A model generated the notes under the pieces. The model worked only from the letters and a program-made list of their open reading frames with translations, did no database searches and was not told the origin of the DNA. A program made the translations under genes and the position numbers. A DNA stretch of 64,000 nucleotides, taken from contig RPFO01001237.1 of assembly GCA_009746045.1 (NCBI GenBank), positions 62,001 through 126,000 of the forward strand, in the 5' to 3' direction. Positions within the stretch are counted from its first letter, which is position 1. The number at the start of each line of letters is the position of its first letter. The DNA comes from Mesostigma viride (lineage: Eukaryota > Streptophyta > Mesostigmatophyceae > Mesostigmatales > Mesostigmataceae). This document shows, one piece after another, positions 3,206 through 60,500 of this stretch.

Positions 3206-5550
3206 ATGTCGTCGGCTGCTTACCAGTGCACATTGGACGTTTCCGTCCAAGCCGAGGACCTCATTCGTATCGCCCGTGAGGCAGGGCAGGCTATCCTCAA
3301 CATCTACAATGGCGACAAGGATGATTGGGAAGTAAAGGTACGTGGCTGTTCGGCATTCGAGATGCAGTGTGCACAGCCTGGCCCCTTTCATTTCACAAGA
3401 GCTGTTTTTTAATTGCTGTTGTCCAATGGCCACTTGTCTTTCCTACTGGGTCCTGTCGTGCAGAGCAAGTCCGACAGTTCACCCCTCACCCGGGCTGACC
3501 AGGACGCGAATGCCATTATATGCGACGCACTCGCGCGTATAGCTCCGCACGTGCCCATCATTTCCGAGGAAAACAAAGCGGTGGATTACGCAGTGCGACG
3601 TAACTTCCAGGTCTCCTTTTGCGTCGATCCTCTAGACGGAACTAAGGAGTTCTTGAAACGGAATGGCCAGGTATGTTGCTGCAGAAAATGTTGTGGTATG
3701 TCTCAGCTTGTTCCTCAGAGATCTGTATCTGTGCGCATAACATGGACAACCGAACCGCCCTAGGCACCCAGCTCCTCGTTGGCTCAAACAGGTTTGCCCC
3801 GTCCTCCCGTCAATGCCTTTGTCGGATTCCCTCTCTCAATTTAGGTAATGGTCTACCACCCAGGATAACAAGCTTTTGTAGTGGCATCTGCCCCCCCCAA
3901 CCTTTAACCTCCCCCCCCATCCTCAACCTCCCCCCCCCAGTTCACGGTAAACATCGCACTCCTGCGCGGGGGCCGGCCCGTCATGGGCGTCGTTCACACC
4001 CCCTGCGAGGACCGCACCCACTGGGCGGTGGCCGGCCAGGGCGCCTACGTCCGTGAGGCCGGCTCTACTTCTGACGCCCGTATCCACGCGGCACAGTTTT
4101 CCGAGACGGATGCTGGAATTACCGTCGTCGGCTCCGCATCGCACAGCACACCAGAAACTGAGGCATTCATCGGTAGGTGGCTTTTGATTGGTAGACGGTC
4201 TTTACCGTTAGGTGGCGCTCGTCGGTAAGTGGCACCGATTGCTAGGCAGTGTTTGTTAGTTGGCGGGCATCAGTAATTGGCGGGTATGTGTTGTTTATCT
4301 GTAGGTGGCGTTTGTCGGTAGATGCATTCATTGCTAGATGGCATTCGTTGGTAGTTGCCACCGCTTCATAGGGGCCCCCCTGTTATTACCTCTATATGGT
4401 GGGTGGTGGCATGCTGTTTGGCACTTGGTGCGTATTGCACCCACAGTCGGGCCTGCACCATGATGCAGAGAAAGTCCTCTGTGGCCTGCCCGCTTGCGGC
4501 AGCGAGAGAAGCCAGGGCGCCCTCCCTCCTTCTCGTTGTGTATTAGGGGTTGAAGTTGCCTTTATTGTGACCCATGTGACGCAGTCACATGCTTGTAATT
4601 ATTGAAATAGTTCATTAACTAAAGTAATCTGGTGCACGTCCGTGTGTCCACGTGGCTGTTGGCCGCATGGTTTGCATGCAATCCATTTACTTGCTCCTTT
4701 TGTTTTCACGGTTATTGGTGCCTTCCCGCTGCAACCATCTGGACCACATGGACCTCCCTTGGGCATGTCTTGCAGGAGCCTGTCTTATCTTTTTACTTGG
4801 CATGCGGGAGCAGGCTACATGATATAGTACTACGAAAGCTTACACCCACGTCAAGTAGTTACTTGTGATTTGTGGGGGAAGGACGAGGAAAGGGAGGAGT
4901 GTGTGGAGAGAAGTCTTTGAAACATGTCAGCGGAGCGTCGGCGGGAGAGTTATGTGTGTTTGCAACTGTTTGCACATGCAGTGTGGGTGGGGTGCGATGC
5001 TGCAGTTATGACTGGTTGCGTGGCTTAAGAGAGATGCCTTGGCATGTTATAAAGAGCATTGCTAGTACTTTTGCTATTGTTGTCATTTGTGTAATTGGGT
5101 TACTAGCGTGCTGTGACTCACTGGCAGTTGCTCTCTGTCTGCCTACATCACTTAAGAAAATCATCGTAACAGATTCTGAGCCGCTCTTTCGGGGACAGTT
5201 TATTGCAATAAATTTTGCTCCAGAAACTGCTGCCTGGGAGATCCAGCCCTAAAACGCTTTCTCTGCCTTATCGCTATTGGTGTTTTCTGCTGCCCCAATG
5301 GCCAGCCAAGTACAAGGACCCCAAGTTCAAGGCACTGGGGAGCTCCCTCAAGTTCATGCTTGTGGCGGAGGGCAAGGCGCACGTGTACCCCCGGCTTGCG
5401 CCGACCTGCGAGTGGGACACGGCAGCATCGCAGATCATTGTGGAGGAGGCAGGGGGCGAGGTTTTCAAGCACCCTGAGGGCACGCCGATGGTGTACAACA
5501 AGGAGAACCCTTTGAACCCCTATTTTGTGGTGTATGGCAAGAGGAAGTAG
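3206..5550 (+). CDS. 3'(2'),5'-bisphosphate nucleotidase, CysQ/SAL1 family
   Basis: Four exons: 3206-3337, 3464-3670, 3941-4172 and 5306-5550. They splice in frame at GT-AG sites to 271 residues, close to the length of bacterial CysQ (about 250). The family removes the 3' phosphate from PAP/PAPS in sulfate assimilation and is related to inositol monophosphatases. Visible motifs are SPLTRAD (about residues 50-56), the metal-binding ISEE (77-80), the signature DPLDGT (99-104), FTVNIALL at the start of exon 3, and the C-terminal metal motif EWDTAA (226-231). GSSLKF and VAEGKAHVYPR are typical CysQ segments. The ATG at 3206 gives a short N-terminus without an obvious transit peptide; an upstream in-frame start or alternative first exon is not excluded. 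Acceptors 2-4 follow pyrimidine-rich tracts, and exon 3 is preceded by C runs. Intron 3 begins with decaying copies of its own donor region. Confidence 0.93.
4160..4360 (+). repeat. Degenerate minisatellite derived from exon 3 donor site
   Basis: Immediately after the exon 3 donor (ATTCATCG|GTAGGTGGC) the intron carries several diverged copies of the same segment: GATTGGTAGACGG, CGTTAGGTGGCGCTCGTCGG, TCGGTAAGTGGC, CTGTAGGTGGCGTTTGTCGG, TAGATGCATTCATTGCTAG and ATGGCATTCGTTGGTAG. Several keep GT donor-like dinucleotides. Confidence 0.7.
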
Positions 5551-6943: not shown

Positions 6944-8104
6944 ATATCTAATCTACATGCAAACATCCTATAGCTACTGTATTTCAGCATCACACAGGAG
7001 CGGAAGCTCTTTGTGGCCTGGAGAGGGGGGACGGCTATCGACTACCGCAACACGTCCTGGCTCTACACCTGTGGCGAATCCCGCCAACGCACGGTTATCT
7101 TGACCAGCTACTACCAGCGCAGCTTCGGCGACATCACCAGAGCACTCAACGCACTCAACGCCCCAGCCCCCGCACAGCCGGCAGCCCCATCGGATTCCTC
7201 CCTCTGCAAGGATGACATCCGCGCAGTGCTGGAGGAGCACGTGATTTGGCCGCTGGCCGAGAAGATGACCTCGCTGAACACCACGCTCAACACGGTCGAG
7301 GCCCGGGTCTCCAACGTGGAAACCAAGGTCGTCCACAAGCTACAACCACAGTTCACGGCGCTACATGCACCGCGGCGCAGGCTTCGGAAACGCATGCTGC
7401 ACTTGTCTCTCGCCTTAACCAGGTGGAGGGCAAGTGCGGCGTGCTCATGAAGAAGCTTGAGGCCATCACCGCCCACACCGAGGCCCTGGCCACACAGGTC
7501 CCAAAGCTAGCGGAACAGACGGCCACCATTGCCTCCCAGCCACCCCGGCAGCCTGGATGCTGGTGACCTCCCGCCGCTCTCCTATGCGGACCTGCTGCGG
7601 TCAGCGACCGCCTCCACCACCGACGCCATCGCCACGAAGCTCCAGGAGCTGGAGGACCACCGCCAGGCCCAGCAACGGGAGGTCACCGACCGCGCTCGCC
7701 GCGAGTGCCGAGTGGTGCTACGTCGCTTCCCCCAGAAGCCAGGTGAGACGTCAACCTCACTTGCTGACGAGCTCAAGAACCAGCTTCTTACCCTCATGGG
7801 CCTGGTAGGTGAGGTAGAACTGCGTGGGTGCCACCGCCTTCCCCACTCACGGGACAAGGCGGCTCCCCCACCAGTCCTGCTCACCTTCCTCTCCCCTGAC
7901 GATAAGCAGCGGTTCCTCTCTCGTCGCAAGCGGTTGCACGACCTCACCTGGACGTTGGATGACGACCTCACCCCCGCTCAGCAACAGGCTGCAGCGACGC
8001 GACCTGTGGCCGGAATACCTCCGCCATAAGCAGGACCCCCAGAAGCCCAAGGTGTACTGGAGGGGCGGGGACCTGATGATCAACCACTGAGATGTGGACG
8101 CCCC
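6944..8104 (+). pseudogene. L1-like LINE ORF1 remnant, frameshifted
   Basis: Three overlapping frames (7013-7375, about 7370-7560, 7529-8090) together resemble the ORF1 protein encoded intact-but-for-one-shift at 21411-22720 on the minus strand. Shared features are a coiled-coil-like middle (LNTTLNTVEARVSNVETKV), the RRM-like block around FLSPDDKQRFLSRRKRLHD, and the C-terminal TLDDDLTPAQQQ motif typical of L1 ORF1 proteins. At least two frameshifts break it. The LTR retrotransposon inserted 14 bases after the ORF1 stop (8088-8090). Joining the flanks across that insertion puts a LINE 3' UTR (18869 onward) directly behind ORF1, with no ORF2 between. Confidence 0.8.
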
Positions 8105-8649
8105 TGTTACGTCGCGTAACAATTCGTTGTAGTTACGGACGTAAATTAGGTCTCTTGCCTCGGTTGTCCCTAGGTTTACGTGTAGTTCCTACTGGGACAC
8201 TATTGTCCTCGTAACAGTACTGTGGCACATTGGGTGCCTTTGGGCGCCGCGCCGCGTACTTTATTAGTGGTCCTGATCCTTTGGTAGAATGTAGTGGACC
8301 AGCGTGCATCTGTAGGCGAGGGCCAGGTCGGCCCGAGCGTGTTGGACCGTTGGTGACCATTTATGCACGTTCTACGGGCCTCGTGTGTTCACTCGGCGTG
8401 TGTTAAATGAATTAACACATATAGGCTTGGGTCACGGCAGTGTAGTTGTGTTTCCTTCCTCTATTCCTGGAGTAAACGGGTTGTGTAAATGGCTTATGGC
8501 GTATTATAGTAATACTTACGTTAATGCACTGAGATCTGGATCGTCTCGTTCGTCTTTCGCTAGGGGTTTAACTAGAGGCGGCCTAACTAGTTTAGGTAGT
8601 ATCAGGCCAGGTAGAGGTAGAGGTGGCGGTAGAAACCCGAGGCGTAACA
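8105..8649 (+). repeat. 5' LTR
   Basis: 545 bp, beginning TGTTACG and ending CGTAACA. The first 17 bases, TGTTACGTCGCGTAACA, are themselves a perfect inverted repeat with 7-bp arms, and the 3' tip repeats the right arm. A second palindrome (TGTGTTAA...TTAACACA) lies near 8397-8417. A TGTAA motif at 8484-8488 could be the poly(A) signal. Confidence 0.96.
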
Positions 8650-8650
8650 A

Positions 8651-8665
8651 TGGACTCGGAGGAAT
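8651..8665 (+). promoter_or_regulatory. Putative primer binding site
   Basis: TGGACTCGGAGGAAT starts one base after the 5' LTR, the position and TGG start expected for a tRNA-primed minus-strand origin. I could not assign the tRNA. Confidence 0.45.
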
Positions 8666-9179
8666 TTTAGGTAGAGAGCGAGACGACGATCCCCTGCAAC
8701 ATACGTCATTGAATCAACCCTTCCGCGTCCGGGAAAATGAAGACGACACCTACTTGACAGGTAATGGGCGGGTCGCCTGCAAGCTGGGGGGGTAGTGCTG
8801 CCCGATTCGGGACACGCCTTGCCTAGAAGATAGACCTGCTCGAAGCGGAAAATCCTTTTATAGATAGCTCCTTTCCTCGTTTTGTTTTCCTGAGACATGT
8901 GCCTACTGTCGTAGATAGGTGATGGTTTTGGTTCTACGTAGAGAGACGACTAGCGTCTCGTAGATTACACTTTTTCTGCATTCTTGCCTGCGTTGTATTT
9001 AGACGACCCATCGCCAGACGCAGAATTCTTGAGACCGGATATCTACTTACGACCACCTGGCGCTGGAAACCTCGTCCCTGCGTGCGTCGTCAATCTGGTT
9101 CGGTTTCAGACACCCGAGATAAGTCGCCTTCTCCTCGTTCTCCTTATTTGACTACTCAAGACCTACCAGGTGCGTTAAC

Positions 9180-9583
9180 ATGAGCCAGCGACGTCCTTTT
9201 CCTGCTCCTTCTCATTCGACTAGTAATAATAGTTTAGCGAAATATTACGTTGTTATTACCCCTCAATGGGCATCTATTTCTTATCGTGGGCCGATGCTAG
9301 GAAGTTCGTTCAGTCGCGTGCTTATAATGTCTCCAAATATAAGAAGTTTATGTCCTTTGAAGAAGCTCAGACCTACCTCTTAAATCATAGTGAATCAGAT
9401 TTGGGTCTCCATTCTCGTCCTTCTCCTCATGCTCGTCCTGCTGTAGATAGTCTTGTTTTCGTTGCACCACCTCCATCTCCTCCTTCGTCTCCCCCTAAAC
9501 GGGCTGCATCCTCATCTAGCTTAGATACGCCTCTCACCTTAGAGTTCGGTTCCCTATCCATTACTGTTGCTAAAAAGGATTGA
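9180..9583 (+). pseudogene. N-terminal ORF with RNase H1-type hybrid-binding domain (one frameshift)
   Basis: Starting at ATG 9180, the frame reads a Ser/Pro-rich leader and then AKYYVVITP. A one-base shift near 9260 continues as GIYFLSWADARKF, then SKYKKFMSFEEAQTYLL. This is the pattern of the RNase H1 N-terminal domain, also found in the caulimovirus inclusion-body protein: a YYVV strand, GIY..W, and KYKKF.SFEEA..YL. The downstream part is Pro/Ser-rich and stops at 9581-9583. It sits where gag normally starts. The domain binds RNA/DNA hybrids in RNase H1, so a role in reverse transcription is a reasonable guess. Confidence 0.7.
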
Positions 9584-9835
9584 TTTAAATTGTTTCTTTT
9601 TTAGGACATTAAAAGCTTTTCTTTTCTTTCCTTGCCTCAAATTAGGCCTTGTCCTTTTTCCTTGTTGCTTTCAGTTAGATTCCTATTCATTTACTTAATT
9701 AAAATGGATCCACTGGGTGGAAATATGTCGCCTATCTATACCTACCAACACTCCTACTATGAATAATAATAATAATATAATAATACTAATAACAATAACA
9801 ACACTCGTGGTAACCGACGGGACTCACTTGAAACG

Positions 9836-11455
9836 GTGCACCATCTCACTCCTCAAGGTAATCTTCGTACCTCACCTCCTTCTCCTGTTACTGGTGGTCG
9901 CCGTCGTCCCTCACTTACCCCTCCTACCTATGAACAACGTATGCAAGTCAGATTTAGTGATGACCCTTCCCTTACCTTGAACCAGGCCCCTGCCCCTCCT
10001 GCAACCTTGGCTCAACCCTCAAGCAGGTCCTCACTAACTAACAATGCTTCTAGGCCTCCTTCCCACCCTGTGCCTTCCATGCCTACTTTTAACACGGGTC
10101 GTACCTCTGCCCCTGTCGGCCCTTCTGGGCGCCCTAGTGCAGTTCCCTTTTACCCACCTGCTTCCTGGTCCTACCCTGAGACGGCCTATGAGGCAGCCCA
10201 GGTCCCTACCCGTGTGGCTGATTTAGAAGTTAATAGTGATTTCAGCACCATGCCCTAGATGATAGAAATTATGATCATTTTGCCTACTCCTCTCTTCGTG
10301 AGCAATATACTGTCCCTTCTCTATGGGCACCAGCCTGAAACGGTGGCCCCTTCTAGACCCCTACCCAAACTTTCCTCTTCCTTCCTTCTATCCCGCTTAT
10401 GTAGCAGTGGAAGATAGTGGCCCTATGGGAAAAACTGACTCTTCTAATCCCCCTAAGCCCCCTGCTCTTCCCCTCTTTGCTAACCTTCCCAAGCTGGATG
10501 TCAAGTCTACCCCTCAACAGTTTTTCACCTTTATTATGTTGCTTACCCAGAACACAGAGTCGTGGCAGAATCATAATAGATGGCGTCTCTCTGATGCTGT
10601 ATTAGTCCTCACTATCTTACAACCTGCATTACTCCTGAGCTTGCTAACCTCATTCAGTGTGAGTCTTTGGCCTCTCATGCCTACCCTAACTCTGTAGCAG
10701 AATTGTTTAAGCGTTTAGAGAACCATTTAGTCCCTCCTGATTCAGATTGGCAGGATAGATTAGCCTTTGGTACCTTGCAGCAGGGTACTAAATCATTTAA
10801 GGAGTATATGAAAGAGTTTGATGCTCAGATGGTACGAATTAGGGATTTGTCGGGTGCAGAAGTACGTGCTCGCTTCCTCCAAGGCCTCAGTAGACCTTAT
10901 TACGTGAAGTCAAGCGCCAGTTCTCTGCCTACCGTTTTACTGATCTGCCCCTCAAGCATGTGCGCCAGCATCTCTTGCGAGTAGCAGATTTCTTCACCAC
11001 TCCTTCTCTCCCTACCCGTTCCCGTATTAATAATATTATCCTTACCCCTGAGGAGGAGAACTCCTATGTAGAAGAATTAGATATCTGCGTTACTGACTTT
11101 CAGCTCTTGATGTCTCTCATATCACATGCTATCATTGTAAGGAAGTAGGTCATCTTAAACGTGAGTGCCCCAAGTTCCTTTCGGGTGCTCCCCCTCATCC
11201 CGACGCTCGCCCTCCTCGTACCCCTCAGCGTGCTCCTATTCGTCCCACTTCAGGACGCATTCCCTCAGCTACCCCTAGTAGGCTGAATGCTGTGCAGACA
11301 GGACCCCCAGGGTTCCCCTATGATAATCAGGCTCCCGCACCCTCTTCGCTCCCTCGTGACCCTCCAGCAGTGGCTTTTTCGCCAGGGTCTTCTTCGGGGT
11401 TAGTTCCTATGGATTTGGGGGGGAGGGGGAACAGTAGGCCTGTCAGCCGGGGGTA
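9836..11455 (+). pseudogene. gag: gag region with CCHC zinc knuckle, several frameshifts
   Basis: A Pro/Ser-rich segment (9836-10258) is followed by a retrotransposon Gag core spread over three frames (about 10440-11060), including SVAELFKRLENHL and GTKSFKEYMKEFDAQMVRI. A zinc knuckle follows: CYHCKEVGHLKREC at about 11125-11170 has the exact C-x2-C-x4-H-x4-C spacing. The frame ends at TAA 11453-11455. The pol frame is already open before this point and lies +1 relative to gag, overlapping at a G-rich run (11417-11430). That run could be a programmed frameshift site or a slippage error. At least three other frame changes make this copy non-functional as read. Confidence 0.8.
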
Positions 11456-11550
11456 ACCTGGACAGGTCCTTAGATAGTACCCCAGATAAAAATTTTTGCC
11501 TGCCTGTTTTTATAACCTCTGTAGGAGCTGAATCTTCCCTACCACTACGT

Positions 11551-14136
11551 GTGCGTCCTCTTATGTTCTTGAATGGTGGTTTAACCGTTCCCCATACTGT
11601 TGTAGACCCTTTCTTGCATGCTGATGAACTCTTGAATGTCTCTGTGTTGGTAGATAGCGGTGCGGCTAGCTCCTTTGTGAGCGAGGCCCTAGTTAGGCGT
11701 TTAGGACTAGTCCCTACCCCTCACACCAAACCTGTCACTGTTCATTATGCTGATGGTCGCACCAGTCATTCCCCGGGTACGGTGTCCCTTCCCCTGGTCA
11801 TACAAGGACGTACTGTCAACCTGACGGCCACTATAGGCCCTATCACTACCGCTGATGTATTACTAGGATTAGATTGGCACCAGGATAATAAGATTACTAT
11901 TAATTATGATACCATGGTCATTTGGTTTCCAGATAGCTCTTACTGGGTACCGGAACGTCATTATAGATTGGAAAATTTATCCTTGGTAGATATTACTCCT
12001 CCTACACCTGTTGATCCTCCTGTAAGACCTATACCTGAAGTATTAATGTCCAATGATGAGTTGCGTTCTGAACTAAAGGAATATGGATATTTATTATGTA
12101 TGTTCCTTCAGTTAGAAGTACAGGAGATACCTATCACTAATAATAGTGTGGATATAGATATAAACACAGTGGATACAATAGGAGTGGGATTTACTGAAAA
12201 TGAAATAGTAAGATACATGGCTGTGATAGATTCCTCAAAAGTTTTTGAAGAAAAGACTCCTTCTTATCCTCCTCCTCGTTCTGTTTTACACCGTGTAGTT
12301 ATCAAGGACGGTGCAGTTCCTACGCACTCTCCGATGTATAGAATGGGCCCTACCGAGTTAAAGGAACTAAAACAGATTTTAGTGTCACTATTAGAAGCAG
12401 GATTGATAGAGCCTAGTAACTCTCCCTACTCAGCTGGTGTCCTGTTAGTTCCTAAGCCAAATGGCAAGTTTCGCCTAGTTACTGATTATAGGAAGTTGAA
12501 TGATATTACTGTGAAGTCTAAATACCCTCTACCTCGTATTGATGATATATTTAATAAGGTTAAAGGTTCCACTTGTTTCACAGTACTGGATTGTGCGGAT
12601 GGTTTTTGGCAGTTGCGGATAGCTCCTGAGGATTGCCATAAAACCGCCTTTGCTACCCCTTTTGGTCATTACCAGTTTAGAGTAGCGGCTATGGGACTCT
12701 GTAACTCGCCTGCCTCTTTTCAAATGTTAATGAATGAAGTGCTTAGACCTGTTATGGGAAATTCTCACCTTCCTCAGGTGTCCTCTGATTTAAAGGATCC
12801 TTCCTTCTCCTCTGTTTCTTTATCTGAGCATGACCGTTCTTGTGCTCAAGCTTACTTAGATGATATTCTTATTTACTCTCCTGATTTTGAAACGCACCTA
12901 CGTGATTTAAAGAAAGTATTAGAAATAATGGCTGAAAATTCTTTGTGGGCGCGCCGTGCTAAAGTTCGTTCGGGTAGGAGTGTCCCATTTTTAGGGCACG
13001 TTCTGTCAGATGCCGGGGTCGCTACCGACCCGGATAAAACTAAGTCAATTCAGGAATGGCCTACCCCTACCGACGTTAAAGGTGTACGTAGTTTTCTAGG
13101 AATTGCTTCTTACTATAGGCGTTTTATCCCGCGTTTCGCAACTATAGCAGCCCCTATTAATCATTTATTAAAGAAGGATATCCCCTTTGTTTGGAGTAGT
13201 GAATGTCAGTCGGCTTTTCAGTGTCTAAAATCCCTACTCCTTTCCCCTCCTGTACTCATCCTACCGGATACTACTAAACCCTTTGTGGTAGCTACAGATG
13301 CTAGTAAGGTAGCTATAGGGGGCGTCCTTCTCCAGGATCAGGGTCAGGGCTTACAGCCAATTGAGTATATCTCTAGGACAATGCTCCCTGCGGAGCGTAA
13401 CTATCCCGTACACCAGCAGGAACTCTTAGCGGTGGTGTATTGTTGCCACGCGTGGCAGCACTTTCTTAAAGGTGCTCAATTTGATGTCTGCCTGAATGAA
13501 CCCTGTGAGCTAGATCCTTATAGATTAGTTATCCAAACGGATCACCGTCCCCTTACCCATCTTCTCTCCCAACCCAACCTTACCCCTCGGCAAGCGCGCT
13601 GGATGGAATTTTTAGCACAGTTTTCCCCTTTTAAACTTCAGTATGTTAAGGGTGTAGATAACATAGTACCAGATGCACTCTCTCGTCGTGCAGATTACTC
13701 CTTTTTCGAGGACCTTGATGTTCTCAATACTACTCTAGTTCCTACTACTATGGGTGTAACCCCTTATGGTGAACTACCTGATGATGAATCCTATGCCTAC
13801 CTCTTTCATACAGCTGTTCGCATGCCTGATCTCCTTTCTCACGTAGGACTCTCTCTCCCGTGTGAGGCCCTTCCCGTGGCCTCGGTGGGGGGGGAGGGGA
13901 AAAATAAAATTTCTATACCGCTTAGCCATATAGCGACTAGGTCAGGAAAGTCTTATGAAAACATAGTCCCTCTAGGACCTCCCCTTCTCTTTGGCAAGGC
14001 GGTAGGAGATCTCTTTAAACCTGTTCTGGATACCTCTGTAGCGATGCCTACCTCTGATCTTGAACGCCTTATTAGTAGATTTACGGCCACTGAGCCGGAA
14101 GCATTAGCTGCCATTGCTGCCATCCCCAACAATTAG
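11551..14136 (+). CDS. pol: Pol: aspartic protease, reverse transcriptase, RNase H
   Basis: An intact 861-codon frame. The boundary given is the first GTG; the frame is open further upstream to about 11430, and translation presumably enters from gag. The protease motif DSGA is at residues 35-38. RT blocks include LDCADGFWQLRIAPED and the catalytic YLDD at 435-438, and RNase H begins at TDASK (D583). The polypeptide ends after a linker with a TAG at 14134-14136, before the integrase. Two inserts stand out against other Ty3/gypsy RTs: roughly 25 residues just before YLDD (NSHLPQVSS...HDRSCAQ) and about 18 residues in RNase H (FDVCLNEPCELDPYR). Codon use is strongly T/A-ending, unlike the GC-rich accessory region downstream. 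Confidence 0.95.
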   Translation: MRPLMFLNGGLTVPHTVVDPFLHADELLNVSVLVDSGAASSFVSEALVRRLGLVPTPHTKPVTVHYADGRTSHSPGTVSLPLVIQGRTVNLTATIGPITTADVLLGLDWHQDNKITINYDTMVIWFPDSSYWVPERHYRLENLSLVDITPPTPVDPPVRPIPEVLMSNDELRSELKEYGYLLCMFLQLEVQEIPITNNSVDIDINTVDTIGVGFTENEIVRYMAVIDSSKVFEEKTPSYPPPRSVLHRVVIKDGAVPTHSPMYRMGPTELKELKQILVSLLEAGLIEPSNSPYSAGVLLVPKPNGKFRLVTDYRKLNDITVKSKYPLPRIDDIFNKVKGSTCFTVLDCADGFWQLRIAPEDCHKTAFATPFGHYQFRVAAMGLCNSPASFQMLMNEVLRPVMGNSHLPQVSSDLKDPSFSSVSLSEHDRSCAQAYLDDILIYSPDFETHLRDLKKVLEIMAENSLWARRAKVRSGRSVPFLGHVLSDAGVATDPDKTKSIQEWPTPTDVKGVRSFLGIASYYRRFIPRFATIAAPINHLLKKDIPFVWSSECQSAFQCLKSLLLSPPVLILPDTTKPFVVATDASKVAIGGVLLQDQGQGLQPIEYISRTMLPAERNYPVHQQELLAVVYCCHAWQHFLKGAQFDVCLNEPCELDPYRLVIQTDHRPLTHLLSQPNLTPRQARWMEFLAQFSPFKLQYVKGVDNIVPDALSRRADYSFFEDLDVLNTTLVPTTMGVTPYGELPDDESYAYLFHTAVRMPDLLSHVGLSLPCEALPVASVGGEGKNKISIPLSHIATRSGKSYENIVPLGPPLLFGKAVGDLFKPVLDTSVAMPTSDLERLISRFTATEPEALAAIAAIPNN

Positions 14137-14149
14137 GCAAGCACCCTTG

Positions 14150-15511
14150 TAAATTTGTAGGTGGGTTTTTATATGTGCAGATAGCAGATTCTCCCCCTCA
14201 ATGGCGCCTGTATGTCCCTCCTATCTGTCGCTCCTCCTTGCTCTTTGAGTTGCATGACTTAGCTGCTCATCAGGGTGGTAAACGGGTACGGGACCTAGTA
14301 GCCCGCTCTTATTACTGGCCTTCCCTTTTAAGGATGTAGATGAGTATGTTAGAACTTGTCAATCTTGCCAGGAGATGAAACCCAATAACGTAGGACAGAT
14401 AGCAGAACCTAGGACCTTGCCTGATCCCATCATGCCGTGGGATTCTATCATGATGGATTTTGTAGGACCTTTTAGAAAGAATGATAGAGGCAATGCCCAG
14501 ATCCTTGTGTTCATAGATCGTTTTACTCGTATGTGCCATCTCGTGCCGTGTCCTTTAGAACTCACCGCACGTGATTGCGCACGCCTATACCTTAATAATG
14601 TATACAGATATCATGGTTTGAGTAGGCAGTTTATTAGTGATAAAGATAAGTTATTTACCTCAGATTTTTGGCAGCAGTTTTTCGCTGCCATCGGTACCAA
14701 GGTTACCTACGGTACTGCCTACCACTCCTCCTCCTCTCATTTAGTAGAGCGTCTTAATAGGGTAGTGGAAGAAGCGCTTAGGCACTATGTTAATGGCTCG
14801 GGAAGTGATTGGGAGGATTATTTATGTTTGGTAGAGTTCTCCCTCAACAATTGCCCCCAGGCTGCGCATGGATATACGCCCTTCTTCCTAGATACTGGTA
14901 GACAGCCTCTTACCCCTACCTCTCTCTTAGCTAGTCCTCTACGGGACAGGATGATGTGTCCCGGATACTGTAGAAGGTGTACAGTCCTTGCTAGATAGAA
15001 TGAAAACTGCACATGACCACGCGATCTCAGGGTACCAAAAAGCTCAGTCTAAGTACCTTGCTAGGTTGCGTGCCTCCTTAGATAGAAGAGCACCTGAGAT
15101 AGATAGGAGATCTAGTATTAGTAGAAGGCCCCCGTGTTGGCCGTTTTGCTCATAAGTTTGAAGCAGAACTTAAGGTCAAACTTAGGCCCGCCTTCTTAGG
15201 ACCCTTCCGTGTGTTGTCTAGAGTAGGAAATTTCTTATATAAAGTCGATATCCCTACCTCTTGGCAGACACATTCTAACACCTTCCATAGAAGCCAGCTG
15301 AAACTGTACCACCCTAGCACGTTCGCTGGTAGAGAGCTAGCGCCTGCCCCTTTAGAGCATAACCCTGACACTGGGGAGTAGAAGACGAAGTAGAGAGCAT
15401 CGTGGCCCATAGAGATATCAAAAAGGGCCGCGGTACCCAGCGTCAGTATAAAGTGAAGTGGATGTATGCTCGTAGTGAGGTAGATAAGTATGGTACACGG
15501 AGAGTGAGCTA
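14150..15511 (+). pseudogene. Integrase and chromodomain-like C-terminus, frameshifted
   Basis: The zinc-binding HHCC region is split: LHDLAAHQGGKRVRDLVARS (14249-14310) and TCQSCQEM (14355-14376) are in different frames. The catalytic core is open from 14375 to 14998. It shows the first Asp in MMDFVGPF, the second in ISDKDKLFTSDFW, and the Glu in HLVERLNRVVEE. After another shift the frame continues to a segment reading EDEVESIVAHRDIKKGRGTQ, then QYKVKWM. This resembles the first half of a chromodomain and stops at TAG 15509-15511. The element therefore belongs with chromoviruses, but this copy is unlikely to make an active integrase. Confidence 0.88.
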
Positions 15512-20830: not shown

Positions 20831-20874
20831 AAAAGGTCGGCAAACGCAATGCATTCAGATGTATTCTGATTTGA

Positions 20875-24060: not shown

Positions 24061-27000
24061 TTATTGCGGTGCATCAAAATTTGGGGGTGGCTTGGACGCG
24101 GCCTCTTCTGGAGTCCGCGTGACCAGGTTGTCCACCGCGTGCACCGCCTGCTGTAGCTCCTCCCAGATCGCCTTGTACACCTTGCGCTGGCGGTTCACGG
24201 CCGTCTCCCCCTCAAACGCATCCGACACGACGTAGATGCTGCGCACGGGCGACGCAAGCGCAAAGCAGCACACACACCAAACAGTGGCAACGGTACAACA
24301 TTAAGTGAGACAACTAGTAGTATTTAAAATTAACTAAACAGACCGACCCCTTAATTCTGCCAGCATAACGCCACTGGTAGCTCTACAAGTATCCACCTTA
24401 AGATAGCACAATAATGCTGCTAGGGGGTCGAGTGAAATTTCAAGCATGTTCTAACACACAGTCACATACTTACAGAATAACAAATGACTACGTGCAATAA
24501 GAAACATAAGTGCAGTTCGTGGCCTGATAAACACAGGAGAAAAAGCTCCGCAATCCAAGAAGTGGTCTAGAACACAGTTGTGTTCGGACACGTTGGAAAG
24601 TGGTAACTTTTGAGGCAGGTATCCCAGCAGATGAGCCCTGAACGTCGTTCTAAGGTCGGGACTAGAATTTCGCAGTCGAGGCACCATGTACCTGAGGTAC
24701 CTCATGGGGTGTACACCAGCCACAACACAAGGGCTCCCACTGTGATGAGTCGCTTGCTTCACCCAGCTGCTATCCCTCATGAAGTGGCACAATTGCACGA
24801 ATCCAACCCTATCCGTCACTTCCTTCGATTTCAAATCCCTTGAGCTGGGTTCCCATTTGAGCAAACACCAGGAAAACGGCCCAAATTACTTAGACAACTT
24901 GCGGCCATTCGATCCAACAACCGTTCTTCAAGGAATTGCTCCCTCTTAACGATTAATGTTCATGTCGCCCAGCTGTCGGGTAGTCAACGGAGCAATGAAC
25001 GACTAGGCTGTTGTTTAGTGGCGAAAGAAGACAATCCAGGGCATGCCAAGACACGTATGGCGATACTGGGGACACTAGAAACAGTATCTTACTATGGACG
25101 AGCACCCAGATAGAGATAAGCACACAGATAGAGATAAGCACACAGATAGAGATAAGCACACAGAGAAGCACACGAGTACTCGGGTAGAGACAACACACAG
25201 ATAGAGACAGCACGCAGATAGAGATAAGCACACAGATAGAGATAAGCACACAGAGAAGCGCACGAGTACTCGGGTAGAGACAACACACAGATAGAGACAG
25301 CACGCAGATAGAGATAAGCACACAGATAGAGATAAGCGCACAGAGAAGCACACGAGTACTCGGGTAGAGACAACACACAGATAGAGACAGCACGCAGATA
25401 GAGATAAGCACACAGATAGAGATACGCACACAGAGAAGCGCACGAGTACTCGGGTAGAGTCAACACACAGATAGAGACAGCACGCAGATAGAGATAAGCA
25501 CACAGAGAAGCACACGAGTACTCGGGTAGAGACAACACACAGATAGAGACAGCACGCAGATAGAGATAAGCACACAGAGAAGCGCACGAGTACTCGGGTA
25601 GAGACAACACACAGATAGAGACAGCACGCAGATAGAGATAAGCACACACATAGAGATAAGCACACAGAGAAGCACACGAGTACTCGGGTAGAGACAACAC
25701 ACAGATAGAGACAGCACGCAGATAGAGATAAGCACACAGAGACGCACACGAGTACTCGGGTAGAGACAACACACAGATAGAGACAGCACGCAGATAGAGA
25801 TAAGCACACAGATAGAGATAGGCACCCAGACAGATATAAGCACACAAAAAGTCGCCCAAATAGGCACCCAATTAGAGATGAGCACCCAACTGACTGCCTC
25901 TCCAGTAGCAGGGTGGTGATGCCTGTAAACTAATGCCCCACAGCGCATGTGCTGAAATCTGGCGCCCCCACTTTCTCTGCAAAGGTTTGGCAACTGCCCC
26001 CCACTGCCCAACACCATGCAAGGGCTTCCAAGCACCTGTACAAGGCCCATTGCCTCAGCAGCAGTCTCGTGTCTCAACAGAGCCAAGGGTAGCGTCTCAT
26101 CGAACCGCGTAAGCATGACAAAAAATCAATCAGCCTACCTTGCTTTAGCTGTTAGTGCTTATCCAATTGTTCAAAATTAAACTACGAATGCCTAGGCTGA
26201 GGCCTTGAGCACAAATCACTTACTGCCCACCTGACGCAGCCGGCACGTCCTTCACCACAGGCATGTGGTCAAGTTAAACCATATCAGGGCCTAGATGACA
26301 TCAGGGCTCAGATCGTGGGAGCATCACGCGACCATGCCCACCTGACGTGGCGCTGGTCGCCCGACACGTCCTTCACCACAAGCTCCTTTGGCTCGAGCGC
26401 CTCCTGGATCTGATGGGGGGGGAGCAGAGGAGGGAAGGGGAAGGGGACGAGGGGGGTAGGGCAAGGGGAGGAGGGGAGGGGGAGGGGAGGAGAAGGGGAT
26501 GGGGAGGGGAGGAGGAGAGGGGGAGGGGAGGAGGAGGGGAGGGGAAGGGGAGGAAGAGGGTAGGGAAGGGGTGGAGGGTAGCGGGAGGGGAGGAGTAGGA
26601 AGGAAGGGCGAGGAGCGGGAAGGAAGGGGACGCCAAGCAGGAAGGAAGGGGTAGTGGCCGGAGATGGGGCCAAGGCCGAGGAGGACGCTGGTGTGTGTCA
26701 TGTTTAACATCTGTTGGCCAGGTGGCGACGCGCAGATGCAGTCGTGCATGTGTTGCCCAAGGACAGCCTAGCCGGGGCCATCGCACAAGACAAGTGCAAC
26801 TGACGTGTTAAGCAATGGGCTATGCAGGGACCGATAAAAAGAACAGCACAGGGACATGGGTTTAACTGGAGAATGACAACGAGACCTGAGAACCCCCCCC
26901 TATCGATCACTACAATGAGACTCGAGCAAACCGCGGGCTGCTTGCTGGTGCATGCGTGGGAGCGGCACAATAGAGATGGTCCACAGTAGCGCGAATAAAT

Positions 27001-28883: not shown

Positions 28884-46779
<17,896 letters not shown>

Positions 46780-46804
<25 letters not shown>

Positions 46805-47180
46805 ATGCGGCTTGCATTGAGTGATGCGAGAAGAATTGTGCTGCTTGCCGAGGTGGGCTATATATAGATGCGGCTTGTATTGAGTGATGCGAGAAGAATT
46901 GTGCTGCTTGCCGAGGTGGGCTGTAAATAGATGCGGCTTGTATTGAGTGATGCGAGAAGAGTTGTGCTGCTTGCCGAGGTGGGCTGTAAATAGATGCGGC
47001 TTGTATTGAGTGATGCGAGAAGAGTTGTGCTGCTTGCCGAGGTGGGCTGTAAATAGATGCGGCTTGTATTGAGTGATGCGAGAAGAGTTGTGCTGCTTGC
47101 CGAGGTGGGCTGTAAATAGATGCTGCTTGCGTTGAGTGACGCAAGAAGAATTGTGGGCTCGCCGAGGTGGGCTGTAAAAA
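46780..47180 (+). repeat. ~62-bp minisatellite derived from the NAP stop-codon region
   Basis: The last exon ends GTGCTGCTCGGCGAGGTGGG plus CTATAAATAG. This segment and the following 30 bp (ATGCGGCTTG..TTGAGTGATGCGAGAAGA) are repeated about six times in tandem. Later units read GCTGTAAATAG, so each carries the chlorophyte poly(A) motif TGTAA. A diverged copy reappears beyond the telomere array at about 47443-47490. Confidence 0.9.
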
Positions 47181-47201
47181 GGAATCGTTGGGTAGTATCT
47201 G

Positions 47202-51841: not shown

Positions 51842-51844
51842 ATA

Positions 51845-52370
51845 TCTAGTGAATGGACTGAAACTATGGGCAAGAAAACTAGAGGAGGATGCTTTCGTGA
51901 ATCCTACAAGCAGGCCAGCGCGCTGGCCTTTGTTGTATGCATGGCCGGGGTGTTAGACTACAGCTGGATGAATGTCAAGTAGCAATTACTACATGACGGA
52001 AAGTCATGCTATAAGAAAGCATGTGAACACCTAGGATTGTCTTATAGACCTAGGGAATATATAGATAGCAGTATAGTGTAGATTATAGTCAGGTTTAGCC
52101 TAGCACGTACGTGGCCCACGCTTATGCGCATGTGCACCTGTAATGGAACTCCCCACGGATGATGCATCAAGAATTTAGCCAAGCTCTGCCTATTATGCAG
52201 AGAGCTACTTTCTGCTGAGAAGCCATGCCCTAGCCATTGTTTAGCCATGATGATCTTCCACCCTATGTCCGCACCTTCTGCTGGAATACACATAGTGATG
52301 CAGGTGCGCTTTGTGCACCCAGAGCAGGTGTAGTTTACACCCTACCCTTGCAGGAAGTAGCCCAGAATGT
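51845..52370 (-). other. LINE 3' UTR-like DNA, no gene
   Basis: Contains 3' UTR blocks shared with 19660-19720 and 21110-21170 on the opposite strand (CTCTGCTGAGAAGCCATGCC-type), so probably another truncated LINE 3' end. The stretch 51845-52050 has nothing recognisable. Confidence 0.5.
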
Positions 52371-52377
52371 ATTAAAA

Positions 52378-53607
52378 GCCATGCATATTAATTAATTAAT
52401 TAATTAGACTCGTGCTCCCGTTGGGGAGTCACGGAGCATTAACCCCGATGAATGGATGGATGGGTGCACACATTCCTACCGGTCTAATCTATCTACATTG
52501 GCTACATACTGCATCTATCTAACAACATTCTAACTACATCATCTATCTAGGCAGCCGCACGCTGCCCTAGGGGGAGCTATCTAGCGTGCCTCCCGCGGGA
52601 TTGCACACGCGGGCGCTTCCCCACTGGGGGGGGCTCGTTGTCCTCTATGACCTGGGCCCACTTGGCCTTGTCCATCATCTTCTTCCAAATCACGGAGAGG
52701 CCTAGGCCCCCCATGTCCTCTACTAGCTGTTCTTTGAAGGTGCGGGCCTTGCGGCGTCTAACATCACTGGGCCCAGCCCACGTCAGGAGGTGCCGGCCAG
52801 GCTGGGCTGGTCGCAGTCCTGCGGGGGGGCCACGTGAGGTGTCTACCTGGTTGGTGCGAGCTAGGTGCCCTACTAGCTGCAGGCGGCGTTGCTTAATTGT
52901 GCTGGTGATATAGGGCATGCCTTGGTACAGGTCCTCATTGCGGACATGAGTGCTCAGCATATCCTACTCTGAAAATGGAACGCAGCATGCTGGTGACCGC
53001 GCCGTCCAGCTTGCGGGCCAGGTCGGCGGTGAGGGTCCACGTCTCGGCGCCATACGTGAGAACAGGAAGGACGAGGACCTTGAACAGGTCCTGTTTCTCG
53101 ATCTTGCCCAGGGGCTTGCGCCATAGGGCCCGGTACTGGCGTAAAGCGTGCCAGGCGAGGGAGATGCGGTGGTCCACATCCACCTCGCAGCTAGGGAGCA
53201 GGCTGCCCAGCAGCTTAACGCGGTCCCGATACAGGACTCGAGAGCCGTCTAGGAGATAGAGGGGCGGCGCTGAGGTGGTGAGCCCAACCGCCAGGGCCTC
53301 TGTCTTCTTGCTGACCTCAAGCCCCACTGCACGGGCCTCGAGAGCCAGGCAGTCAAGCCATGTCTGCACGTGCTCAGTGTCCTCAAAGAGGGTGGTGTCG
53401 TCTGCGTAAATGATGTCTGCTAGCCGAATCTCCGTGTCCGCACCGCCATGCCAGAATTTGTTAGCAACCTGCACTCCTGGTTCCCTGCCCACGATGCGGG
53501 CAAATCGCTTGCGCGCCTGAATCATTACGTATTCGACAACAATAATGAACAGGTAGGGCGACAGCACGCAGCCCTGCCACACACCCTTCTGTAAAGGCCA
53601 TGCATAT
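52378..53607 (-). pseudogene. 5'-truncated LINE with ORF2 C-terminal half and target duplication
   Basis: On the minus strand, 53582-52935 encodes the RT palm: QGCVLSPYLFIIVVEYVM, catalytic YADD within DIIYADDTTLFED, KLLGSLLPSCEVDVDHRISL and VLPVLTYGAETWTLTADL. After a shift near 52950, the ORF2 C-terminus (DLYQGMPYITSTIKQRRLQL ... RSRGRHAR) ends at 52577. A 3' UTR, the stem-loop at 52405-52430 and a (TTAA)n tail follow. GCCATGCATAT occurs at both edges (52378-52388 and 53597-53607), which fits a target-site duplication of a 5'-truncated insertion. Confidence 0.88.
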
Positions 53608-53734
53608 ATATTAATAATATAATTACTTACAGCAGAGTGAAATCACTCAAACCAAAGCAAACACCCAGCTATAAACCTATATACAGAGCCATGTCAAATC
53701 TCTATACTACGATAAGACCAATGGAAACTCCTAA

Positions 53735-54591: not shown

Positions 54592-57500
54592 ATGCAAGGT
54601 GCGAACGGCCCGCATTTTGAGCAGGGCGTCCCTATCCAATGCGTGGTTCGCGTACGCCCAACAGAGTCAACTGGTATAGCCGGCGGTAGTGGCTGGAAGG
54701 ACATAGCACGCAACGGAGACCATGTTCAAGTCCTATCCAATTCACAGTTAGAGCGAGCGGAGGCCCGGGTAGACCTGTGCTTCGGTCCAGAGTCGACAAA
54801 TGGCGAGATTTATAGAAACGTTGTCGATCCACTGGTTGCCAAGGTGTGTGATGGGTACAATGGCGCGCTGCTGCTATTCGGCGCCACGGGGAGCGGGAAA
54901 AGCTTCACGTTGGAAGGCACCGGGAGAAACCTTCCCGGTGTCGTGCAATTGGCCATTGAGGGACTCTTCCAGCAGCTGATTGCGAAATCCAAGACCCTCC
55001 TGCTGGACGCCCGGCTCGCCTCCGGTCGCAACCCCGCCGGCAGCTACAACTTCTCGGTCGAGAGCTCTTTCCTCGAGATCTGCGGCGACGAATGCCGCGA
55101 CCTGTACAACCCGTCCACCGACCCCGCCCTCCTCCGCGTGCTCGACGACAGATGGAAAGGCGTTCACGTGGCACGCTTGAGCTCCAAACCAGCCGCCACC
55201 TCCAGCCAGCTCCTGTCGAGTTTCCTCGCCAGCAGGGAGAGCCGTGCCCGCGCTCCCCCGGATGCCAGCAACCCCTCCTCCCGGACCGCCACGATCTTCT
55301 CCCTCACCATCGAACAAAGCAACGTCCCGTCCGGCACGCCCGGAATCCCGCCCACCGAACGCCTCTCCTCCAAGCTTCTATTTGTAGAACTCCCCGGCTC
55401 CGAGAAACTCTCCGCCGACCCCGAGTTGCTCCGCCTGCGCGAGGGCCCCTCCGCGAATAGAGGCATCCTGGCCTTTGGCAGCCAGGTGCGGCTGCTAGCA
55501 TCGCCCGAGACGCGCGAGTACATGGACCCCAGGGCCTCCTCGCTGACCCATCTCCTGGCGGACGCGCTGGGAGGGAACAGCTTCACCACGGTGCTGGCGA
55601 CCGTCATGCCAGGGGAGCCGGCCGTCAGCTCCGCAACACTGCGCCACCTGGGCTACCTGAGCGGGGGCGGCAGCAGCAGCGGTGTCGGCGGACAGAATAA
55701 CAATGGCTACATCGTGGCGGGCGCCAGCACGTACCCGGTCCAGAACAATGACCGTGTGAGAGCGCTGCTGAGGACGCTGCGCGCGAGATTGTTGCATGCG
55801 GAAGAATCGCTGCAGAGCAACCAAACAAAGGGGGGAGGCCATTCAAGGATAGGAGCTGGGCTGTCCACAGGGGGAAGTGCTCCAGGGAACCTGAATCCTT
55901 TGCTCCCCGGCGAGGCGGGAAGGGATGCCAATAGCCTTGGTGGCGATAATGGCAATAATTCTGGCGGCGGTGGGGGGGACTTGGAGGTGGCGGCACTGCA
56001 GGGACGTCTGCTCGAGGAGCGGAAGGAGCGCGCGCTGGCGCTGCAGGAGCGGGACGGCGCGCGTTACCACGTGCGCCAGCTCAAGGAGATGGCGGACCGG
56101 CTGCTAGCAGAAAAGGAGGAGCTCCAGGCGGCGCTGATATCGAGCGAGGAGGAGCGCCTGACCATCGGGCGTGCGCTCATCGACGCCGAGTTGATGGTGA
56201 ACGAGGCGGCGCTGGATGCGGCCAAGACCAGGGCGGAGCTGGAGGGCCGGGTGTTGGAACTAGAGGCCGAGAAGATGGAGCGGGGGGTTGCGGAGGGGGT
56301 CGACGCGGGGCGGGCGAAGCGGCTGGAGGAGGAGGTGAGGGATCTGCGGGCGCGGCTGGCACAGGCAGAGGCATCGGGGGTGGCCAAGGAGGAGGAGAAA
56401 GCGAGGACGGAGGAGGAGGGCCGCCAGATGGCAGCGCGGGTGGGGGAGTTGGTGGCCGAGAAGGATGCTATAATGGAGGAGAAAGCGGGGGTGGAGAGGG
56501 AGCTGCAGGGGGTGCGGTCCGAGGTGGAACGGAGAGGGAGGGATGCGGAAGAGGCCGAGGGCATGGCGGACACCAGGATAAGGGAGGCGGCCGCAAAGGC
56601 GGACGCCAGGATAAGGGAGGCAGCCGCAGAGGCGGACGCCAGGATAAGAGAGGTCGAAGCGAGGGTGGAAGGAAGAATCAGGGACGTGGAGGCTAAAGCG
56701 GAGGGCAGCGTTAGGGAGGCGAGAGCGCAGGTGGAGCTCATGGAGAAACAGGTGGCGGAAGAGAAGAGGGAGGCCGAGAGGAGGCTCGCGGCGGCGCAGG
56801 AGGGCGCACGCGCTGAGCTGGCGGCGGTCACGGCCAAGTGGGAGAGCGAGCTGGCGCGAGCCAAGGCCACGGCGGCGACCGAGGTTGCGGACGCCAGAGC
56901 CAAAGCGGGGGCAGAGATCGCCGACATCAAGGCGAGGGGGGATGCGGAGGTAGAGGAGACAAGGGCGAAGGCAGAGGCGCAAGTCGCGGAGGCAAAGGCT
57001 AGGGCTGACGCAGGGATCAAGGAGGCGGAGAGGGCATCGGGAGTGGCTGCCGAGGAAGCGAGATCATCGACGAGGAGTCTCGAGGAGGCTCGTGCGACCG
57101 TGGAGCGACAGTTGGCGGAGCTGGGAGAGGCCAGGGGGGAGATCGCAGCGATGCGAGGGGAGCGTGACGCCGCGAAGCAGCAACTCGAGGAGGTGAAGCG
57201 CGAGTGGGAGCAGGCGCAGGAGGGGTACCGTGCCAAACTGGCAGGGTACGCGGCGCAGGTGGGGGAGCTGGCCAGGGCGGTCGCTATCACGGAGAGTGAC
57301 CCAGACAGCCACGTGCTGGAGCCGGCGCAGCTGGCGGTCACTATGAGACAGGTGAGGGTCACTATGAGACAGGTGAGGTCACTATGAGATAGCTGACGGT
57401 CACTATGAGACAGTTGAGGGTCACTATGAGACAGGTGAGGGACGCTATGAGGCAGGTGAGGGTCATGATGAGACCGGTGTGGGTCACTGTGTTCTTTTTT

Positions 57501-60500
57501 AGGGTCACTATCAGACAGGTGAGGGTCTTTGTAGGCCGTGGGGTCGCATGTAATAGCCACCATGGTGTTTCAAGCTAGACACACATGGGAGCAGTTGGGA
57601 TTCGTTTAAGGATGGTTGGGTGGCTTGCCGTAAGGACGATGGGTTGGGCCCAATGAGAATTGCCCTGGTTTGTCCGCCGGAAAGCAGGTTGGGCTGGGAT
57701 TCCGACAAAAAGGCACGCTGGGATGGGATTTGGGTGGTAGTCCTGGCTGTCACGCCTTTATGTTGGGTGGGTGGTTGCTCTGCGAGGACCCAGAAAAGTT
57801 TTACTCACAGTCGCAACTAGTCTGAAGTTGCTCACATCCAGAGTTCAATTTCATGAGGTTTTCCCCCACCTTGACGTTGCTGCCCAGCTCACCCTGCTAA
57901 ACCATGTGGCGCCGTCCCACTTTTTAGTTTTCTCCAGGTCATGCGAACGAGCATCGTGTCACATCCTTTGATCATTGCCACATCCTTCGATCGTTGTAAC
58001 AGCCTTCGATCGTCGTAACATCTTTCACTCACTGTCCAGCTCACGCGTAAGAAGATGCCGTGTCCCCCTCCCCCCCCCCCCCCCCCCCTCCCCCGGTTTC
58101 CTTTTTGTCCAGCACAATAATGAGACCCTGCACTGTCTCTTGATTTACTTTGCTCCCGTTGTTGTACAGGAACCTGCGGCCTCCCGTCCCCACCCCGCAC
58201 CCTTTCGCCCCGTCCCATCCCGCCTCCACCCACCCTTTCGCCCCGTCCCGCTCATGGCACCAAACAACCTGTTTCCCTCCCCCCTCCTGTTTCCATCCAG
58301 CTCATGTTTGTACGCAACCTGCTGCCTCTCCGGTTGTTTCCTTTCCTGCCCGTCCCGCTCACCTACCAAAGAATGCTCTTTCCCTCCTGCGCTTTCCCTC
58401 CTTGTCCTATTCGTCCTTTGTCCCATTCCGTGCCCACCCAGCTCATGGCGGAGATTGGTGCTGCGGACGCGGAGCATGACGAGCGGCAGGCGAAAGAGCT
58501 GGCCTCGTTGCGGCGCCAGCTTAAACAACAGACGGCCGCGCACGAGCAGCTCGCTGCTGCACACGCACAGCTCAAGGCAAAGCCCGTGGCCCCGGTGCCA
58601 CCACCACCCGCACATCTCCTTCCCCAGGGCTCCAACAATCCATCCTCTCTATCCCAACCGATCGTGCCGTCGTCATTATCATCCAAGTCAATGCGAGGGG
58701 AGCCTGGCTCGCCAGCAGCCATCGGACGTAACCCTGGCATCATCTTACAAGATGGGGACGGTCCTGATGGAGCTGGTGACGTTGATGGTATTGGCGATGG
58801 CGGGGCGTTGCGGCGCCGATGTCAGCAGTTAGAGCAGCAGCTATTAGACGCCCGGCTGGAGCTATCGCGGCGAGGGGGGGGAGCGGGCGCGTCGGGGTTA
58901 AACCTATCGCCCGCGTTAAACCTGTCGCCGCAGGATCAGCAGGGTCTGCCACCTGGCTCTCCTTTCGCGGGCGGTGGCGTGCTCGGCGGCAACTTTGCTG
59001 GAGCCAACGGTGGCAACGGAGGCAAGCTGCCTGGTGGTGGTGGTGACGGCGGTGACGGCGGTGACGGCCTACCGTATGGGGATGGTCAAGCCCATTCAAT
59101 TGGCATGCCTGCGAGCGAGGGCGTAATCCCACCCGCCGTGGCACTCCTGGACAAGCAGCAGCGCGAGTACCAGCAGCAGCAGCAGCAGCGGCAGCAGCTG
59201 CAGCACCAGAAGAAAGAGCTGGAGCGTCTGTCCGCAGAAAACGAGGTGCTCAAGGAGGAGCTGGAGTCACTGCGGCGCGGTCTTGGCTGGGGGCTGGCCG
59301 CAAAATCCCAGCAGCAACAGCCGCCACCGCCGCAACAGCAGGCCGCGACTAGGGCCCCCACGGGGGATCCATCGTCTTCCGGCCCCTGGCAGGGGGACCG
59401 TTCCCAGATGGACAAGGTGGCACACCCATCGGATCTGGCGGCTCGTCCGCTGCAGACCAACGGGCAGCGGCAGGATAGCCCGCAGCCAGTAGTGGCCCCC
59501 AACGGTCAGCCGTCGCCGCAGAATCGACAACGGGAGGCCTGGACCAGCATTCCTGCGGATGGGGACGCTGCAGGTGGCCCGCAGGGTGCTGGCTCCGGTG
59601 CTGCCCGCGATGTCGACATGCTGGCATCTGGGGAGGCTGCCGCGAGGGGTTCTGGGGCCAGGGACTCGAGTCAACCGCCGGGGAGGAAAGGGGCGGGCCA
59701 GGGGCAGGGATATGGGGACGGTGTGGCGGGTGGGAGTGGCGAACTAGGATCTGGCCTTGGTGGTGACGGGGGATTGGGCCAAGAGGCATGGGGGAACTTT
59801 GGGGGCCGAGAGGTGGACATGGCCAAGCAGGCCGCGGAGAAGGAGGTGGAGCTGTCGCGTCTGACGGCGGAGAGAGATCAGCTCAAGGGGCAGGTGGCGG
59901 AGCTGCAGCGCGCGTACGAGAGCGCGGGCGGGCGTGATGGTGGTGGGGTCGCGGAGATGGCGGCGACGATATCACGTCTCCGGGGACAGGTGGCGGCGAT
60001 GGAGAAGTCAGTGCGGGCGGCGATGAGCATGGAGTCGCTGCGTGTGCAGGTGGCCGAGTTCACGCGGGGAACCCAGATGGAGCTCGAGAGGGAGGTGGCG
60101 GCGTACAGAGGGAGGGCCACGCTCGCCGAGGAGCAGCTGGAGCGGATGCAAGAATACACTGCCAAGGCAACGCTGGCCTACCAAAAGGAGATCGCGCGGC
60201 TGCGGGGCATGCTGGCGCCCGTGGACAGCGGCGCGAATGCAGGGTTGAATGGCGCCGTGTTTGGGGCAACTGTCACTCTCGCTGCTGGCAACGGTCACTC
60301 TGGCCATGGTGGGCCTGGTGCTGTTGCGGCGAATGCTGATAGCCGAAGTTCCCGTCGGGGATCCGGCAGTCAGGGTAGGCAGGGGCCTGCACCTGAGGGA
60401 GGGCATAGTGATAACAATGGTTACCATAGTTCTAGCGGCGCGCCCAGCAGGAAAGCGCATCCCGATGGCGGGCAGGGTGATAGGACCGGGCTTGCCACTG

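Follow-up and report, generated by a model that had tools for sequence, protein, structure and literature searches.

Tandem repeats that span exon-intron borders have been described in amphioxus, in which these so-called mirages occur at both 5' and 3' borders in Adh3 and in the globin genes BflGb6 and BflGb9 (PMC3087553). In the parts of that report drawn on here, the repeat units measure from 10 to about 160 bp, AG/GT is present in many of them but not in all, length polymorphism is reported, and splicing is described as undisturbed (PMC3087553). A border-crossing tandem duplication is also recorded in the potato RdRp gene, where, according to the sections of the source taken into account, it produced an intron (PMC4974935). 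The present analysis concerns copies of exon edges in introns of the green alga Mesostigma viride, noticed in a 64,000-nucleotide stretch of nuclear DNA (C1420:62001-126000, contig RPFO01001237.1; hereafter the window) that carries SAL1, BolA, NAP and kinesin genes. The sampled assembly comprises 439.9 Mb in 2243 contigs; for the published NIES-296 assembly, the portion of its description used here gives a size of 442 Mb, a repeat content of 66%, an average intron length of 1142 bp and a repetitive share of intron space of 30.1% (PMC6947507). The results indicate, with a probability of roughly 0.6, that introns of this alga carry decayed copies of exon edges together with their splice sites, most often the 5' ones, which arose by tandem duplication and exceed the number expected from constraint on the exons alone. 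It is thus likely that Mesostigma introns lengthen through tandem duplications that span their own splice sites.

Junctions outside the window served as an independent sample. Exons of four gene families (kinesin, CCT chaperonin, E2 enzyme and cyclophilin) were picked by Pfam match alone, blind to repeats, from match lists used only in part, and a copy crossing the junction within 400 bp was sought both at the splice junctions and at interior positions of the same introns. The kinesin set of 30 loci excluded L007 and L009, in which the domain lies in one exon, and L010, which is the window itself. Exon ends were dropped when the site score fell below threshold, when they lay in masked simple repeats or when they lay too near the end of a stretch. 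The donors and acceptors kept were 19/27 and 22/27, then 42/52 and 41/52, in the two kinesin batches, 17/23 and 17/23 in CCT, 12/19 and 12/19 in E2, and 8/10 (ten terminal exons set aside) and 14/20 in cyclophilin. A crossing copy was present at 36 of 98 donors, against 266 of 2427 interior positions (locus-wise sign-flip p = 2e-5, 62 loci), and at 18 of 106 acceptors, against 275 of 2472 (locus-wise p = 0.007, 70 loci), the donor rate being the higher one (p = 0.0015, four families pooled). Such copies occurred in 4/4 families, at 10/19 and 15/42 donors in kinesin, 6/17 in CCT, 3/12 in E2 and 2/8 in cyclophilin, and at 6/22 and 8/41 acceptors in kinesin and 4/14 in cyclophilin. The initial annotation had seen in the window a theme common to the splice junctions of all four genes, and had proposed comparing exon edges with random places in the same introns. 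Outside the window this comparison upholds the theme clearly for donors and with a weaker excess for acceptors; inside the window no enrichment was found.

The profile along the introns, the swap control and the tandem test cover the kinesin, CCT and window junctions, E2 and cyclophilin being excluded. When the same probes were set against introns of other genes, matches were found in only 5/744 (donor) and 3/752 (acceptor) cases; therefore, the copies do not reflect the shared splice consensus. Introners and introner-like elements are dispersed families of splice-site-bearing sequences that increase intron content, and the Mesostigma copies also lie in introns and bear splice dinucleotides, as would be expected of such mobile elements or of reverse-spliced pieces. 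They resemble their own exon edge, however, and are nearly absent from the sampled introns of other genes, with no whole-genome copy search made, so that a mobile origin is extremely improbable. An assembly artefact is likewise unlikely as a general cause, because the copies have diverged (88% mean identity for donors, 84% for acceptors) and occur in all four outside families.

The copies lie close to their source, at a median distance of 96 nt for donors and 137 nt for acceptors, and the match extends into the exon by a median of 21.5 and 23 nt, respectively, within a limit of 25 nt. A head-to-tail unit could be traced with a coverage of at least 0.6 in 27 of 54 copies and of at least 0.8 in 18 of 54, the latter value being reached by shuffled sequences at a rate of 0.016; the spacing in the clear tandem cases was 38-146 bp, with one exception of 416 bp. 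About half of the copies are therefore demonstrably head-to-tail tandem duplications, and the remaining ones likely arose in the same way. The splice dinucleotide was intact in 27/36 donor copies and 11/17 acceptor copies. The presence of GT or AG in 38 of the 53 junction copies could be taken as a sign that selection maintains decoy splice sites, either to regulate splicing or as a back-up. The retention, however, is close to the neutral expectation from overall identity (0.77 and 0.72), which indicates that the copies bear no mark of selection and makes a selected function very improbable.

A more serious alternative is that tandem duplication acts uniformly along introns, and that the frozen exon copy merely keeps old pairs recognisable at the edges. 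The window offers some support for it, since 385 of 1435 interior intron probes had a local duplication at p < 1e-3. By position class, local duplication was found in the window at 31% of 844 intronic, 5.6% of 853 intergenic and 2.2% of 372 coding positions, and at 0.4% of 773 positions in transposon-like stretches recognised by eye. The frames resembling long terminal repeat (LTR) and non-LTR retroelements, also seen by eye at 7000-17600, 20400-22750 and 50000-53700, were nearly free of local duplications. Junctions as the sole seat of duplication were rejected, intron interiors being rich in it too, and they are at most a hot spot over a high intron-wide background. In addition, the edge excess is sharp and confined to probes that hold exon sequence. 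With 40-nt probes the peak lies at offset -10, where the exon edge is within the probe (0.40 for donors, 0.18 for acceptors), and the values are 0.08 and 0.03 at -40 in the exon and 0.15 and 0.07 at +30 in the intron.

The size of the excess nevertheless argues against constraint as the only cause. In the donor profile (n = 94) the rate was 0.344 at the edge, 0.155 in the next intron part and 0.134 in the far intron, which gives an edge/near ratio of 2.23 (interval 1.69-2.98) and an edge/far ratio of 2.6 (1.74-3.93), and simulated uniform duplication with frozen exons gave an edge/near ratio of only 1.02-1.43. An earlier simulation with longer units, now superseded, had placed the edge within about 1.2 of the interior. 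For acceptors (n = 96) the rates were 0.163, 0.080 and 0.128, with an edge/near ratio of 2.04 (1.23-4.09). Stop-codon edges, which are constrained alike and are not spliced, had a copy in only 1 of 20 cases, namely in NAP (p = 0.003 versus donors). This count leaves aside the open-frame end of the kinesin (a wrong border), L083 (where no stop lies within reach) and L085 (a likely intron), and the edges of L055 and L061 are less certain. Moreover, in copies reaching at least 20 nt into the intron, mismatch was alike in the exon part (0.135) and the intron part (0.148) instead of the predicted 1:2, although the end-trimming of local alignments biases this comparison towards equality. Finally, donors and acceptors differ two-fold although the exons are frozen on both sides. 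Taken together, constraint alone appears rather unlikely.

Several observations weigh against the reading that exon edges are duplicated beyond constraint. Part of the edge excess is to be expected in any case, because the exon copy cannot drift. In the window taken by itself the junctions were not enriched, with copies at 4/16 donors and 2/15 acceptors against 194/727 and 191/708 interior positions at p < 1e-3, an interior count that a few large arrays dominate. A hot spot that duplicates long intronic parts should also raise the rate of intron-only probes near donors, and those 30-120 nt away were barely raised relative to the far intron (1.16, interval 0.69-1.89). On the acceptor side the edge/far ratio was only 1.28 (0.75-2.04), a simple Fisher test of the excess gave only p = 0.05, and no copy at all was found at the acceptors of CCT (0/17) and E2 (0/12); in cyclophilin the donor-side interior (11/57) nearly equals the donors (2/8). 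The outside junctions were set by reading frame and site score, without RNA, and some interior probes may lie in young transposons or in exons that went unrecognised, so that the background would come out too low. The stop-codon control adjoins 3' flanks, where duplication may be less frequent than in introns, as it is at the intergenic positions of the window, and one of its edges (L078) was a near miss at p = 0.002. Half of the 54 copies tested, furthermore, could not be traced as a tandem unit.

As to what might favour the 5' end, the initial annotation had pointed to breaks associated with R-loops or the spliceosome, repaired by duplicating the junction. Non-template G skew and G-runs favour R-loops. 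On the RNA-like strand, the G skew on the donor side is +0.30 at +6 to +40, +0.13 at +150 to +300 and -0.02 beyond, and GGG on the non-template strand falls from 36 per kb at +6 to +40 to 16 per kb at +300 to +600. Such composition just after donors, like the donor bias itself, suits R-loops, although it shows none. The near-intron rate, on the other hand, is hardly raised, and on the acceptor side the intron is skewed at least as strongly, in the opposite direction, and contains fewer copies, so that this origin is a tentative possibility. The sampled introns in general are G-rich at the start and C-rich at the end on the RNA-like strand, with a skew that extends 150-300 nt inward.

The explanation favoured here, in which exon edges and their splice sites are copied by tandem duplication beyond the effect of constraint, may be pictured as follows. 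A general slippage or repair process would duplicate short stretches throughout introns, with the intron's 5' end being duplicated, or retaining its duplications, more than constraint alone predicts (about 2.2-fold versus the simulated 1.0-1.4). The 5' bias likely stems from some process linked with transcription or splicing in the G-rich first part of the intron. The copies are likely tolerated, since they would be silent as long as splicing uses the exon-proximal site. Acceptor copies precede the true site, so that the spliceosome would encounter them before it, and they are likely exposed to selection through mis-splicing; the fewer copies on this side may be explained by the fact that an upstream decoy acceptor is likely more easily mis-spliced. 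Over time, such duplications would lengthen introns and feed minisatellites. A stronger claim, that a mutational process coupled to splicing or transcription copies 5' junctions into the following intron at more than one third of donors, continually driving the growth of introns and supplying a large stock of second splice sites for new introns and exons, is possible but doubtful.

Within the window, 32 junctions belonging to 16 introns were scanned: the 25+25 nt around each were compared with no more than 1 kb of the intron concerned, and shuffled introns supplied the p-values. Seven of the 32 reached p < 0.003, and all seven matches cross the junction. The initial annotation had claimed exon-edge copies at ten splice junctions, of which these seven stand, two are weak and one lacks support. 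In SAL1 (SAL1/CysQ), the exon 3 donor (between 4172 and 4173, plus strand) opens a degenerate array with a unit of about 17 bp at 4160..4365 (p = 4.7e-5), which starts in the exon edge GCATTCATCG followed directly by GTAGGTG. At the exon 1 donor of the kinesin gene (between 57351 and 57352, plus strand), a minisatellite of 9.2 copies of a 21-bp unit, made up of the exon end and GTGAGG, begins in the exon and occupies 57328..57527 (p = 9e-15). The other five lie on the plus strand in NAP, where both the acceptor and the donor side of exons 6 and 13 have copies. At 34799..34853 the exon 6 acceptor is copied together with about 40 nt of the exon (p = 4.4e-5; real acceptor between 34904 and 34905), and copies of the donor edge of this exon lie at 35182..35262, with lags of 55 and 114 (p = 2.2e-3, or 0.005 over 400 bp; real donor between 35147 and 35148). 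The real exon 6 donor is apparently a GC donor (GAG/GCAAGT), while the copy 55 bp downstream at 35182 has the canonical GT (GAG/GTAAGG); one kinesin locus of the sample (L017) has a GC donor too, by site score. The exon 9 donor edge, with the real donor between 39315 and 39316, has copies at 39409 and 39710 (39409..39740; lags 121 and 416; p = 8e-4). At exon 13, a copy of the acceptor with the first exon bases lies at 43705..43734 (p = 1.1e-4; real acceptor between 43804 and 43805), and the donor edge recurs at 43939 and 44002 (43939..44030; p = 1.8e-8; real donor between 43891 and 43892) in an array with a 54-bp head-to-tail unit and a unit coverage of 1.0.

The two weak cases are the exon 2 donor of BolA and the exon 2 acceptor of kinesin. 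In BolA, a minus-strand gene whose real exon 2 edge lies at 26332-26381 with the last exon base at 26342, a decayed copy of edge and donor at 26224..26260 (minus strand; p = 0.022 over 1 kb, 0.008 over 400 bp) measures 37 nt by eye, about 10 nt less than the sequence copied. The kinesin acceptor (between 58441 and 58442) has degenerate edge copies at 58244..58306 on the plus strand (p = 0.036, or 0.011 over 400 bp). The claimed copy at the NAP exon 15 donor is unsupported (p = 0.024 over 1 kb, 0.32 over 400 bp). What had been taken for a further junction, the end of NAP exon 16, is actually the stop codon (46804), which lies within a coding-end minisatellite of 6.4 copies of a 63-bp unit (46770..47178, plus strand); the unit consists of the last 35 nt of the coding sequence, including the stop codon, and 3' flank. 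Directly behind this minisatellite, at 47201-47395, stands an interstitial array of 28 telomere-like TTTAGGG units. NAP intron 8 consists mostly of another minisatellite (53 bp x 31, 37318-38960), which starts about 250 bp from the exon.

Exon borders in the window were placed by eye from translations and GT/AG sites. Pfam recognised Inositol_P in 3/3 SAL1 exons, the BolA domain in the last BolA exon, the kinesin domain in kinesin, and the NAP domain in three of the five exons of that gene that were tried, exons 6 and 15 showing none. The joined SAL1 exons are identical to the EukProt protein Mv09606 (P0050; 100% identity over the full 239-aa query, exon 3/4 join included), and residues 1-420 of the kinesin frame are identical to the EukProt Mesostigma viride protein jgi Mesvir1 Mv09609. 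The SAL1 exon 3 donor agrees with P0050, and the kinesin exon 1/2 borders agree with the public gene model P0001. Both models, which are predictions, join the exon-proximal sites. In NAP, exons 12 and 14 are unresolved, and the 'introns' 41366-43804 and 43892-45031 may each hide an extra small exon. As read, the gene (30521-46804) encodes two NAP-like domains in tandem and an apparent membrane helix at the end; Bryopsis BSKO_00793 (P0047, 585 aa) matches the joined NAP query with 28% identity and 77% coverage. Two of the sampled loci, L037 and L038 (C622 and C2:6329500-), share 99.96% identity along 5.2 kb and differ only by two gaps, without any mismatch; they probably represent an unpurged duplicate contig and are therefore uninformative on polymorphism.

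The lengthening of introns and the origin of new splice sites have been argued mostly from single cases. In a genome with more than one third of the sampled donors duplicated, the birth, decay and use of decoys would become measurable in hundreds of natural replicates, and it could be tested whether splicing or transcription itself provokes duplications. The question is also raised how the spliceosome picks the right one of two near-identical donors.

Tandem duplication has entered models of intron origin before. Rogers reportedly proposed the AGGT model of intron gain by tandem duplication, Zhuo et al. (2007) are said to have derived human introns from tandem arrays, and Gao and Lynch (2009) reportedly dealt with internal gene duplication. 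The latter two share with the present case the tandem array as a source of intron sequence; judging by their titles, however, they concern the creation of introns and not copies beside existing splice sites. Introners differ from the Mesostigma copies, which are local and gene-specific, as the swap control indicates. Searches of the open-licence literature showed neither a genome-scale rate nor, apart from the potato case, any account of mirage arrays in algae or green plants. To the extent covered by the cited part of the potato report, the RdRp duplication resembles the Mesostigma ones in that crossing an intron-exon border supplies a second set of splice signals. There, however, a new intron was produced, whereas in Mesostigma the copies lie within existing introns. 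The nearest known counterpart is the amphioxus mirages. As far as the sections of that report used here allow a comparison, the Mesostigma copies likewise occur at both 5' and 3' borders, with acceptors modestly above the interior, they are likewise head-to-tail in 27 of 54 cases, and many but not all of them keep AG/GT. The two systems differ in that one belongs to a green alga and the other to a chordate, and in that 37% of the sampled donors over four families are involved here, against single genes there. Moreover, the donor bias in Mesostigma was measured against intron interiors, other introns, stop codons and simulation.

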